Assembly: GCF_000014585.1 (NCBI RefSeq)
Contig: NC_008319.1
Span: 1,426,001-1,490,000 of the forward strand
Length of the DNA: 64,000 nt
DNA from: Synechococcus sp. CC9311
Lineage (GTDB): Bacteria > Cyanobacteriota > Cyanobacteriia > PCC-6307 > Cyanobiaceae
Direction of reading: 5' to 3'
The position numbers were made by a program, and so were the translations under genes. The number at the start of each line of letters is the position of its first letter. Position 1 is the stretch's first letter. A model generated the notes under the pieces. It saw only the letters and a list, made by a program, of their open reading frames with translations. It was not told the DNA's origin and did not search any database. Below are positions 25,682 to 30,613 of the stretch, in pieces.

Positions 25682-25723
25682 GTGCGCGTTGATACAAAAG
25701 GGTGTCAGATCGATGCCTACGGT
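25682..25723 (+). promoter_or_regulatory. NtcA-activated promoter of glnA
   Basis: GTGCGCGTTGATAC at 25682-25695 matches the NtcA box GTA-N8-TAC with one mismatch. Exactly 22 bases further lies TACGGT (25718-25723), a TAN3T -10 box. The geometry is that of a class II NtcA promoter, where 2-oxoglutarate-activated NtcA replaces the -35. It leads directly to glnA at 25756. Confidence 0.7.
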
Positions 25724-25755
25724 TAGAAAAGATACTTACGGCTGAAGCCTCAACC

Positions 25756-27177
25756 ATGGCTAAAACTGCTCAGGACGTACTTCGCCAGATCAAGGACGAA
25801 GGAATCGAGCTGATCGACCTCAAATTCAGCGATCTGCACGGCAAGTGGCAACACCTCACCGTGTGTTCAGACATGGTCGATGAGGATGCCTTCAAGGAAG
25901 GTTTGGCCTTTGACGGATCCTCCATACGCGGCTGGAAAGCGATCAACGCGTCTGACATGTCCATGGTTCCAGACCCCGCCACAGCCTGGGTCGACCCTTT
26001 TTATCGCCATAAAACCCTCAGCCTGATCTGCTCGATCCAGGACCCAAGAACAGGGGACCCCTATGAGCGCTGCCCCCGTGCGTTGGCGCAGAAAGCTTTG
26101 GCTTATCTCTCCAATACAGGTCTGGCCGATAAAGCATTCTTTGGTCCCGAGCCTGAATTTTTTCTCTTCGATGACGTTCGCTACAACTCGAGCGAAGGCG
26201 GCTGTTTCTACAGCGTTGACACCATTGAGGCTGGGTGGAACTCCGGGAGGATGGAAGAAGGCGGAAACCTTGCTTACAAAATTCAGCTAAAGGAAGGTTA
26301 TTTCCCTGTCGCACCAAACGACACAGCGCAAGATATTCGCTCCGAGATGTTATTGATGATGGCCCAATTGGGGATCCCCATTGAGAAGCATCACCATGAA
26401 GTGGCTGGTGCTGGCCAACACGAATTAGGAATGAAGTTCGACGAACTCATTCAAGCTGCCGACAACGTAATGACCTACAAATACGTTGTTCGCAACGTTG
26501 CAAAAAAGTACGGCAAAACAGCAACTTTCATGCCGAAGCCTGTCTTTAATGACAACGGCACTGGCATGCACGTGCACCAAAGCCTTTGGAAGGGCGATCA
26601 ACCCTTGTTCTTCGGGGAAGGAACCTACGCCAACTTGTCTCAGACAGCCCGCTGGTACATCGGCGGAATTTTGAAGCATGCGCCGAGCTTCCTAGCCTTC
26701 ACCAACCCCACCACAAACAGCTACAAGCGACTTGTTCCTGGATTCGAAGCACCTGTGAATTTGGTGTACTCCGAAGGCAACCGATCTGCTGCAGTTCGGA
26801 TCCCCCTCACCGGCCCCAGTCCAAAAGCCAAGCGCTTGGAATTCCGTTCCGGTGATGCTTTAGCGAATCCCTATTTGGCCTTTGCCGCCATGATGATGGC
26901 TGGGATCGATGGCATCAAAAACCAAATTGATCCTGGCGATGGCTTCGATGGTGACCTCTTCGAGCTGCCAGCCGATCAGCTCAAGGACATAGCCACCGTT
27001 CCAGCATCACTGAACGGAGCTTTGGAAGCTTTGAATGCTGATCACCACTACTTAATGGAAGGCGGAGTGTTCACGAAAGACTTCATCGACAACTGGATCA
27101 ACCTCAAGTACGAAGAGGTGCAGCAGTTGCGTCAGCGACCCCATCCCCACGAATTCACCATGTACTACGACGCTTGA
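25756..27177 (+). CDS. glnA: Glutamine synthetase type I
   Basis: This 473-residue cytoplasmic dodecameric enzyme assimilates ammonium into glutamine. Family signatures are [10 protein letters not shown] near residue 55, [10 protein letters not shown], the ATP site in [19 protein letters not shown] and NRSAAVRIP. The loop near the C-terminus ([25 protein letters not shown]) is intact. The ATG at 25756 (MAKTAQDVL) is preferred over an upstream frame start at 25702 that would lie inside the NtcA promoter. A strong terminator follows. Confidence 0.97.
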
Positions 27178-27250: not shown

Positions 27251-27301
27251 TGGGAAAAGACGGGTGACACAAGTTAGATCTGCCGCGAAACCATCGCTGG
27301 C

Positions 27302-27730
27302 GTGATGCACGACGCAGCGAATTTGTTGTGCACAACTGTTCAGCAGCAGAGATTCCCACTCGTCATTGCGGCAGACCACTCCACTGCTGCCTCAACAATT
27401 GCAGGAATCCGCCCTGCCCATCCTCAGTCGCGGCTTGGGGTGATCTGGAATGATTCCCACGCTGATAATCATGCCCCCTTCACGACTCCTCGGGGAACAT
27501 GCATGGGGACAACTTTTCAGAGGCGAGGAGGTCTCTGGGCAAATGAGGCCATTCTCCTGCTATTCAGGCTTCTCTCAGATCCACGCGTTTGTTGCTGGGA
27601 AATTTGTGAAATCAATCCCTACCGTGATGAGCTAACTACCATTGCCGAGCTGTCTTTGGGCATCTTCCAGGCTGGGCTGGAGGTTCTCGGGGAACGGTTC
27701 AGCTCGACATCTTCATCCCATGCAAGCTGA
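27302..27730 (+). pseudogene. Decayed ureohydrolase (arginase/agmatinase/guanidine hydrolase family)
   Basis: The 142-residue frame keeps two pieces of a ureohydrolase. The first is the N-terminal metal region, FPLVIAADHSTAASTIAGI followed by LGVIWNDSHAD, where the family has GGDHS and DAHAD. The second is the C-terminal piece EINPYRDELTTIAELSLGIF, where the family has EVNP. The roughly 130 residues between them, including the second metal site (SxDxDxxDP), are missing, and so is the N-terminus. The gene is therefore very likely inactive. An active version would make urea from arginine, agmatine or guanidine. Its end overlaps the urea-transporter start, suggesting a former operon. Confidence 0.68.
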
Positions 27731-29315
27731 TGCACCCTCTAGTTATGAGCTGCTGCAAGCTCTACTGCCTCCGCCGCCACCACCGGTAGAACGAAAAGGA
27801 TTGTTTGCTGAACAGCATTTCCCGACAGGCTCCTGGGGAAGCGGGCTACGCAGCTTTTCCCAAGTGATCTTTATCAACCATCCACTCAGTGGTGCGCTGC
27901 TGCTGCTGGCCTTTCTGATCCAATCGCCTTGGATGGCTCTTTTGGCTGCCTTGGGAATGGCTGCAGCAAACTCCGTTTCCAAGCTGCTGAATCTTGGCCA
28001 AAGCCTGCGCGATCAGGGAATCCACGGCTTCAACGGTGCACTTGTGGGATGTGCCGCGGCAGTTTTATCAGACTCCAGCTCAGTGGAAGATGCTGGGCTG
28101 ATCGCGGTGTTGGTGGCGTTCGGAGGCGGACTCACAACGCTGATTCTCGAACTTTGGCGTCGCCGCTTTCATCGCCGCGGAGACCCGCCGGCGCTCACCC
28201 TGCCGTTCTGTCTCATCACCTGGGGACTTGTGGCATTGGTCAGCCCTCGCATACCAGACACAATCGAGACGGTGAAAGCGGCTGCTTCCCCTACTGCAGT
28301 TCAGGTGTTGGCTGTCGGACTTCCCCACAGCTTCGGACAAGTCTTTCTCTGCTCCGATCTTGTCAGCGGATGGCTCATACTCCTGGCGGTTGCTATCGCT
28401 AGCCCCATCGCCGCCGCGCTGGGAGCGTGTGGTGCCCTGATGGGGATGATGACCGCCTTAGCAAGCGGTACCGACACCGCTGCTGTGGCACAAGGTTTAT
28501 GGGGTTACAACGGCGTTTTGGTTGCGATCGCCCTCGGTGGGATCTTCCACGTGCCCGGACGCAGAACCCTTGTCTTAGCTCTCATGGGAGCCGGGCTTGC
28601 AAGCCTGCTACAGGCGCTACAGGGGAGGTTGATGGGCAACCTTCCAGTTCTCACTCTGAGCTTCGTGCTCACAACTTGGATGATGCAGCGTCTGGCTGGA
28701 AGAACACTGCCGGCACTGATTCCTGTTGCCGTGCATGCAGTCGTCACCCCTGAGGAACACCGCAAACGGTTTCTCGTGGCGAGTGAACTGTTAGGAAGCT
28801 TCCGCCGCAACTTGAAACAGAGGGTGGACGGCATGGCCCCCAACGCTGAGGGGGAACAGCCTCAAACCGATCTGAACAGCCAGATCCAACATCTTTTCGA
28901 TCAGCTCGACCAAAATCGTGATGGCCATCTCAGCCTTGACGAGCTTCGCAATGCGCTGCTGTCAGGCGGTGTGAACCATAAAACCCATCTGCGACGAACG
29001 TCATCCCTGAACAATCAAGTGTTGGCAACGATGAGATCAATGGATCTCAATGGTGATGGCCATATCGACTCCGCTGAATTCAGCCAGTTCATCCAACGCT
29101 TGCAACGACTCCGAGAGGGAGAGGAGCGGTTGCTGCTGTACTTAATGCCCGTCGATGCCAATGGCAACGATCGTCTCGATCAAGAGGAATTAACGCGACT
29201 CCTGCAAAGCATCGGCCAACCGCCGCTCACCGCCGGGGAACAAGCGTTGGTGTTCCCAAACCAGCAGCAAAGTCTTAGCTGGCACAATTTCGTGGATCGC
29301 TTGTTGTTGAGCTAA
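27720..29315 (+). CDS. Urea transporter (UT family) fused to C-terminal EF-hands
   Basis: This protein of about 531 residues has a UT-type urea channel at residues about 40-340 with two homologous halves: INHPLSGALLLLAFLIQSPW with GIHGFNGALVG in the first, and SDLVSGWLILLAVAI with GLWGYNGVLVAIALGG in the second. A soluble tail follows with canonical calcium loops at 397-408 (DQNRDGHLSLDE) and 442-453 (DLNGDGHIDSAE). A third loop with Asp replacing Gly lies at 479-490, and a degenerate fourth near 515. The start at 27720 lies in the end of the ureohydrolase remnant. The fusion implies calcium control of urea flux, which is inference. Confidence 0.88.
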   Translation: MQADAPSSYELLQALLPPPPPPVERKGLFAEQHFPTGSWGSGLRSFSQVIFINHPLSGALLLLAFLIQSPWMALLAALGMAAANSVSKLLNLGQSLRDQGIHGFNGALVGCAAAVLSDSSSVEDAGLIAVLVAFGGGLTTLILELWRRRFHRRGDPPALTLPFCLITWGLVALVSPRIPDTIETVKAAASPTAVQVLAVGLPHSFGQVFLCSDLVSGWLILLAVAIASPIAAALGACGALMGMMTALASGTDTAAVAQGLWGYNGVLVAIALGGIFHVPGRRTLVLALMGAGLASLLQALQGRLMGNLPVLTLSFVLTTWMMQRLAGRTLPALIPVAVHAVVTPEEHRKRFLVASELLGSFRRNLKQRVDGMAPNAEGEQPQTDLNSQIQHLFDQLDQNRDGHLSLDELRNALLSGGVNHKTHLRRTSSLNNQVLATMRSMDLNGDGHIDSAEFSQFIQRLQRLREGEERLLLYLMPVDANGNDRLDQEELTRLLQSIGQPPLTAGEQALVFPNQQQSLSWHNFVDRLLLS

Positions 29316-30415: not shown

Positions 30416-30613
30416 ATGTCAGAAGAGCAATTAAACGCCTTCATAGAAAAGGTCCAATCCAACGCCATTCTTCAAGGCCAGCTCAAAGCTGCCGCAGACG
30501 TCGAAGCGGTCGCTGCTATTGCAGCCGAGAACGGATTTCAGCTCAAGCCAGATAACGCTTTACGGATGCTGATGTGGGAGTTTCAAGAAGCAGAATTAGA
30601 AGGTGGAGATTGA
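30416..30613 (+). CDS. Nif11-type leader-like peptide without a core
   Basis: This 65-residue protein begins MSEEQLNAFIEKVQ and contains AAADVEAVAAIAAENGF, the hallmark of the Nif11 leader family used by prochlorosin-type lanthipeptide precursors. It ends ELEGGD and then a stop, so the chain terminates one residue past the double-glycine where the core would begin. No lanthionine synthetase or peptidase-containing exporter is in the window. It may be a free-standing Nif11 protein or a precursor that lost its core. Confidence 0.82.
   Translation: MSEEQLNAFIEKVQSNAILQGQLKAAADVEAVAAIAAENGFQLKPDNALRMLMWEFQEAELEGGD

Follow-up and report, generated by a model that had tools for sequence, protein, structure and literature searches.

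We identified in the genome of Synechococcus sp. CC9311 a urea channel of the UT family whose C terminus carries a calmodulin-like domain. This protein, UT-EF, represents a genuine and conserved form of a known channel family, apparently not described before, and is best seen as belonging to a calcium-sensing urea pair. Its counterpart would be an arginase-type ureohydrolase with a calcium-sensing domain of its own at the N terminus (EF-arginase), whose gene is broken in CC9311 and was overlooked in the first-pass annotation of this DNA. The window analysed here is the 64,000-nucleotide stretch of contig NC_008319.1 from position 1,426,001 to 1,490,000, and the features of the locus are collected in Table 1.

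We propose that the two proteins form a calcium-controlled pair, a reading to which we give close to an even chance, if slightly below it. The calmodulin-like domain of UT-EF would sense calcium and so open or close the UT pore, and UT-EF would have evolved as half of a unit with EF-arginase. A shared calcium signal would reach both proteins, EF-arginase producing urea and UT-EF passing it across the membrane. These cells spend ATP on importing urea, which urease then breaks down; a gate is favoured because an always-open pore would be expected to leak the urea that the importer pumps in. In the window genome, where the enzyme is broken, the channel would pass urea made inside the cell by an agmatinase-like enzyme, or urea present at high levels outside. 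A more specific version, in which one signal turns on both the urea-making enzyme and the urea pore through two separately attached calmodulin-like domains, is possible and in our judgement rather doubtful. Calcium binding, gating and the direction of flux are properties that we infer for UT-EF.

UT-EF joins a urea channel to a calmodulin-like domain

UT-EF is encoded by a single uninterrupted frame, from the ATG at 27720 to the stop at 29315. The first-pass annotation had described an in-frame fusion of a UT channel with a calmodulin-like tail and had named a frameshift between the two parts as the finding that would undo it; the open frame and its matches to the Pfam UT and EF-hand models bear the fusion out, and the frame contains no such frameshift. 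An origin of the fusion in a frameshift or an assembly artefact is ruled out by the identical architecture in 32 genomes. The channel part gives a full-length match to the Pfam UT model (PF03253; E 2e-67, 227.9 bits against a cut-off of 25, profile positions 5-287 of 292), which falls at residues 69-348 in the Pfam numbering, taken from a 557-aa frame with an upstream TTG start. The NCBIfam equivalog model TIGR03441 (urea_trans_yut) spans residues 43-322 of UT-EF, with a score under the cut-off of this narrower model (152.7 against 274.6 bits). Profile and pairwise searches align the channel part with human and Desulfovibrio urea transporters. The constriction of the human transporter is reported to be lined by V69, T177, L292 and F342 (PMC10541013). 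Counted along the alignment, V49, T160, L267 and F315 of UT-EF take these positions; the last three are invariant in the 32 aligned UT-EF sequences and V49 is near-invariant. The UT domain and the four constriction residues are thus common to UT-EF and to the UT/SLC14 channels (human UT-A and UT-B, Desulfovibrio dvUT), and UT-EF is, by these sequence features, a member of the UT family and is predicted to conduct urea passively. What UT-EF adds is the tail: the bacterial UT chain 3k3f (340 aa) is aligned over residues 8-330, which leaves no room for one. A single-sequence structure prediction of the window protein had a mean pLDDT of 43.6 and was set aside.

Table 1. Features of the UT-EF locus, in coordinates of the window.
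Feature	Position	Strand	Basis and remarks
Glutamine synthetase, neighbour outside the unit	25702..27177	+	Pfam Gln-synt_C 2.6e-137
Broken arginase-family gene, EF-arginase remnant	27278..27730	+	Pfam Arginase 3.4e-13; stop overlaps UT-EF ATG by 11 nt
UT-EF, urea channel with calmodulin-like C-terminal domain	27720..29315	+	531 aa, ATG start
UT channel domain, ~residues 43-322	27846..28685	+	Pfam UT; TIGR03441; alignment to solved urea transporters
Basic linker, ~residues 343-370, begins TPEEHRKRF	28746..28829	+	PEEH invariant, T near-invariant in 32 sequences
EF-hand loop 1, DQNRDGHLSLDE, canonical	28908..28943	+	D1, E12 in 32/32
EF-hand loop 2, DLNGDGHIDSAE, canonical	29043..29078	+	D1, G6, E12 in 32/32
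EF-hand loop 3, DANGNDRLDQEE, position 6 altered, acidic ligands kept	29154..29189	+	D1, E12 in 32/32
Degenerate fourth EF-hand, VFPNQQQSLSWH, without ligand pattern	29250..29285	+	W at position 11 in 32/32

In the search against EF-hand profiles that the first-pass annotation had suggested, the tail matched five models above their Pfam cut-offs (best E 3.8e-14). The loops are as that annotation had described them, two canonical, one altered and a degenerate fourth. Loop 3 of the window protein has D instead of G at position 6; this position is non-G in 31 of the 32 UT-EF sequences and D in 22 of them, and the altered loop 3 and the dead loop 4 are, across this alignment, features of the family. 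Positions 3 and 5 of loops 1-3 are occupied by D, N, S or Q in the same sequences. When the whole window genome was searched with the EF-hand-pair model PF13499, the one model used at this scale, the tail was the only one of two matches to pass the cut-off.

Between channel and tail lies a basic linker, with a net charge of +2 to +6 in all 32 UT-EF sequences. Its mean best amphipathic moment is 0.48 against a 95th percentile of 0.43, but this comparison is biased, the moment being a maximum over several sequence windows and the background coming from single ones. In the protein encoded here, the eight 18-mers of highest amphipathicity sit in the EF part, outside the linker. A calmodulin-binding helix in the linker is therefore offered as a suggestion only. 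The tail presumably lies on the cytosolic side, given the topology that we assume for UT proteins. The profile search of UT-EF also matched 3khe, which we take to be a calcium-dependent protein kinase (CDPK). As we understand these kinases, a working domain is followed by a basic stretch and then a calmodulin-like domain, and UT-EF would have the same order of parts with a channel as the working domain.

An EF-hand tail is the rule among the cyanobacterial UT channels sampled

A UT gene is present in 40 of 400 genomes of the family to which CC9311 belongs, the window genome included. Thirty-two of these genes are complete; every one carries the tail, and all 32 align from end to end. Of the other eight, three run into contig ends (G212, G280, G347) and five are broken or fragmentary (G023, G198, G208, G230, G292). 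In a sample of the phylum, 14 of 386 genomes have a UT match over the cut-off and three more have weak matches under it. Twelve of the 14 bear an EF tail, nine within the family of the window and three in another family of the class (G522, G586, G720); in the remaining two the tail is a peptidase M23 domain, assigned by Pfam in G459 and by likeness in G524. An EF-tailed UT is hence no single-strain oddity. The first-pass annotation had treated the fusion as a rarity, which did not hold up. It had also reasoned that a common fusion whose loops do not bind calcium would count against a calcium-gated port; the fusion is indeed common, but the ligands are kept. A scan of contigs for the EF pattern found at least one locus, in Synechococcus sp. 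GFB01.

Some loci outside the family have features of their own. The UT-M23 fusions lie at L094:6543-8708 (by Pfam) and L093:6095-8233 (by likeness), each beside a gene that by its look encodes a PLP-type decarboxylase-like protein. Close to UT-EF, two genomes of another family carry a gene for an inosine-uridine nucleoside hydrolase (L091:8321-9430, L092:10406-11401). Carriage of UT-EF by phages or plasmids is rejected: none of 55 pattern matches in viral contigs was a UT-EF relative, and the plasmid search gave two partial matches (34-35% identity over 58-59% of the query). The arginase query found two distant matches in viral contigs (27-30%).

The proposed partner is an arginase-type enzyme with its own EF-hand domain

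The gene directly upstream of UT-EF, whose match to the arginase family covers 27302-27730, no longer encodes a complete enzyme in CC9311. Compared with G101, the nearest relative, about 1.2 kb are gone, made up of some 0.5 kb of spacer, the EF domain and the N-terminus; the core has lost a further ~360 bp, and the motif SGNMHGMP has been destroyed. Intact partners in relatives have about 500 residues, with an N-terminal EF-hand domain followed by the arginase domain, and both the Arginase (PF00491) and EF-hand models match all 17 complete EF-arginases. Three loops of the EF domain are live and one is dead. D1 and E12 are present in 17 of 17 sequences for loops 3 and 4, and the D1/E12 pattern of loop 1 in the 16 of 16 rows that span it, one of which has E for D at position 1. 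A second ruin of the gene was seen in G076 (L043:8093-8684), where the EF part and the C-terminus are left, the catalytic core is lost and the channel is intact; in G205 (C1:2797925-2801166) the EF-arginase lies in two pieces about 1.75 kb apart.

EF-arginase has the arginase domain and motifs in common with arginase (RocF). It contains DAHADIHSP, SGNMHGMP and DVD, and its GDHS, DAHAD and DVD motifs, which we take to form the metal site, align with those of solved arginases. It is unlike RocF in its N-terminal EF-hand domain and in two substitutions, N to H and D to E, at positions that presumably hold the amino acid head of arginine; in the window genome it is, in addition, broken. The closest PDB matches of its domain are arginases (8.7e-43), and the four EF-arginases scanned score under the cut-off of the NCBIfam rocF_arginase model (190-210 against 227.6 bits). 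We infer that arginine is the substrate. A serious alternative, which would be compatible with gating and which we nevertheless hold unlikely, is that the enzyme hydrolyses another guanidino compound and that the pair serves detoxification and the venting of urea. The two changed substrate-head positions suggest it, as does a cluster in G141 (L033:561-5506), about 2.2 kb from the UT-EF/EF-arginase pair, which comprises a HypB homologue, an agmatinase-family gene and an SsuA-type ABC cassette. We assume that this agmatinase-family gene resembles the guanidine hydrolase Sll1077 and the cluster a guanidine hydrolase cluster. Such a neighbour, however, occurs in just one of 46 stretches, some of them short, NCBIfam assigns the gene to agmatinase (178.4 against 174.3 bits), and the nearness of the EF-arginase domain to PDB arginases also speaks against it.

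Arginase and channel occur together

Counted at E values up to 1e-20, arginase was found in 26 of the 400 family genomes, and 25 of these also have a UT gene (Fisher p 3e-28, kinship ignored). In 21 genomes it immediately precedes the channel gene on the same strand, and remnants hold this place in two more, the window genome and G076. The 21 comprise 17 complete EF-arginases, one split by frame (G075), one interrupted (G205), one cut by a contig end (G221) and one without an EF part (G005). In six relatives, as in the window, the arginase gene reaches 11 nt into the channel gene, and in G005 it reaches 4 nt into it; the remaining gaps measure 4-304 nt save in the interrupted G205, all counted from start codons of our choosing. 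Arginase is the most widely shared neighbour gene (21 of 46 stretches, against 10 and 9 for the next genes); the same clustering also gave a clump of 81 overlapping shadow frames from 34 stretches, 59 of them within UT or arginase frames and 22 outside. The divergence of UT-EF and that of arginase are correlated over 15 paired loci (r 0.94).

The pairing is asymmetric. Fifteen of the 40 channel genomes have no arginase match, which implies that the channel does something without arginase, whereas one of the 26 arginase genomes lacks a detected channel (G372, 64% complete). In G343 and G351 the arginase has no EF part and lies on another contig than the channel, and in G586, of another family, UT-EF and arginase are both present and unlinked. 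The arginase query matched 20 of the 386 genomes of the phylum sample. One of them, G709, has a broken EF-arginase and no UT was found there, which counts against the calcium-controlled pair and against a strict rule of pairing; G597 has an arginase domain with an internal stop and neither EF part nor UT, and nine more distant genomes gave weaker arginase-domain matches only. There was no clear sign that NtcA controls arginase or UT: the site GTAN8TAC, in the form that we assume for this regulator, precedes 1 of 19 arginases and none of 15 other UT genes, and a looser pattern, likewise assumed, precedes 2 of 19 and 0 of 15.

The adjacency and co-divergence of the two genes would also fit a different role for the EF-hands, as calcium-dependent docking modules that bring the enzyme or another partner to the mouth of an always-open channel. 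In both UT-EF and EF-arginase a short basic stretch connects the EF module with the working domain, which points the same way. Complete tailed UT genes in genomes without an arginase match (e.g. G030, G102, G132) speak against docking, and we consider it as improbable as the alternative substrate.

Urea metabolism and the proposed gate

The window genome has urease and UrtA of the urea importer. Its one other ureohydrolase, beside a spermidine-synthase-like frame, is probably an agmatinase. The window also encodes a small Nif11-domain protein (30416-30610, 6.9e-15), and no tRNA genes were found over positions 1-64000. We compared the 40 UT genomes of the family with 40 hand-picked UT-negative ones (17 of the genus and the 23 lowest-numbered others), among which are several small or incomplete genomes. 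Urease is present in 36 of 40 against 26 of 40 (p 0.014, uncorrected), and UrtA exceeds its cut-off in 38 of 40 against 26 of 40, both comparisons being uncorrected for kinship or completeness.

The urease count is what would be expected if the tail were a structural or calcium-buffering appendage on a constitutively open, low-affinity channel that takes up urea for urease at high outside concentrations, and the UT structures solved so far are reported to have open pores (PMC10541013). An open pore, however, should leak beside the ATP-driven Urt importer, and the three conserved ligand sets of the tail and the separate EF domain on the arginase also count against it; we regard this explanation as a little less probable than docking.

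Cyanophycin as a general source of arginine was rejected, since no cyanophycin synthetase exceeded the cut-off of 850 bits in any of the 80 genomes. Long cyanophycin-synthetase-like matches under it were seen in G347 (C93, 499.7 bits), G023 (C1:1029955, 494.7 bits) and G262 (C43, 423.3 bits), so a link to cyanophycin may exist in these few strains; the best score in the window genome is 67 bits.

The channel is kept where the enzyme is lost

The window UT-EF is under purifying selection and the gene is kept. Against G101, dN/dS is 0.24 overall, 0.16 for the channel and 0.40 for the EF part. With the window gene as one member, three strain pairs give 0.40, 0.26 and 0.26 for the EF part against 0.16 for the channel; three pairs without it give 0.19, 0.20 and 0.11 for the EF part against 0.24, 0.24 and 0.29 for the channel, all from small counts. 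As the EF part outpaces the channel only when the window gene is one of the pair, constraint on the tail may have loosened slightly in this genome since the loss of the enzyme, and for the same reason we rate the calcium-controlled pair slightly lower, and decay slightly higher, than we otherwise would. Slow decay of the window channel, or at least of its tail, as a relic after arginase loss might be suggested by the broken arginases of the window genome and G076, the five broken or fragmentary UT genes among the 40 genomes and the faster EF part in window pairs. It is nonetheless the least probable of the explanations, because the frame is intact and selected, none of the 12 changes unique to the window protein touches a ligand or pore position, and G101, whose arginase is full-length, has more unique changes (19).

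Relation to known systems and significance

A search of published titles and abstract openings returned no description of a UT channel or an arginase fused to EF-hands, and a 2007 paper surveying how 24 cyanobacteria break down arginine does not mention EF-hand, calcium or CC9311 in its main text (PMC2242806). In cyanobacteria, calcium signals have been tied to nitrogen status, with the signalling mechanisms called virtually unknown (PMC7065334). CSE, described as the only known calcium sensor in Anabaena and as almost exclusive to filamentous forms (PMC7065334), is an EF-hand calcium protein tied to nitrogen metabolism, as the present domains would be; it is a free-standing small sensor, whereas in the Synechococcus-type family the domain forms part of a channel and of an enzyme.

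For gating, a known system to compare is UreI of Helicobacter pylori, described as a pH-gated urea channel and hence opened by a signal, as we propose for UT-EF. The UreI family is unrelated to UT and its signal is a different one; UT-EF is no member of it and would at most work in a similar way.

With a sensor-like domain inside a urea channel and inside a urea-making enzyme, the gene itself names the target of the signal, and the proposal can be tested with two purified proteins. If the gating is real, calcium would contribute to the choice between retention, uptake and release of urea in such cyanobacteria. If one calcium signal indeed switches both proteins, the pair would act as a direct effector through which calcium signalling reaches nitrogen metabolism in Synechococcus-type cyanobacteria, and would include a calcium-gated urea channel; neither was found described in the literature searched.
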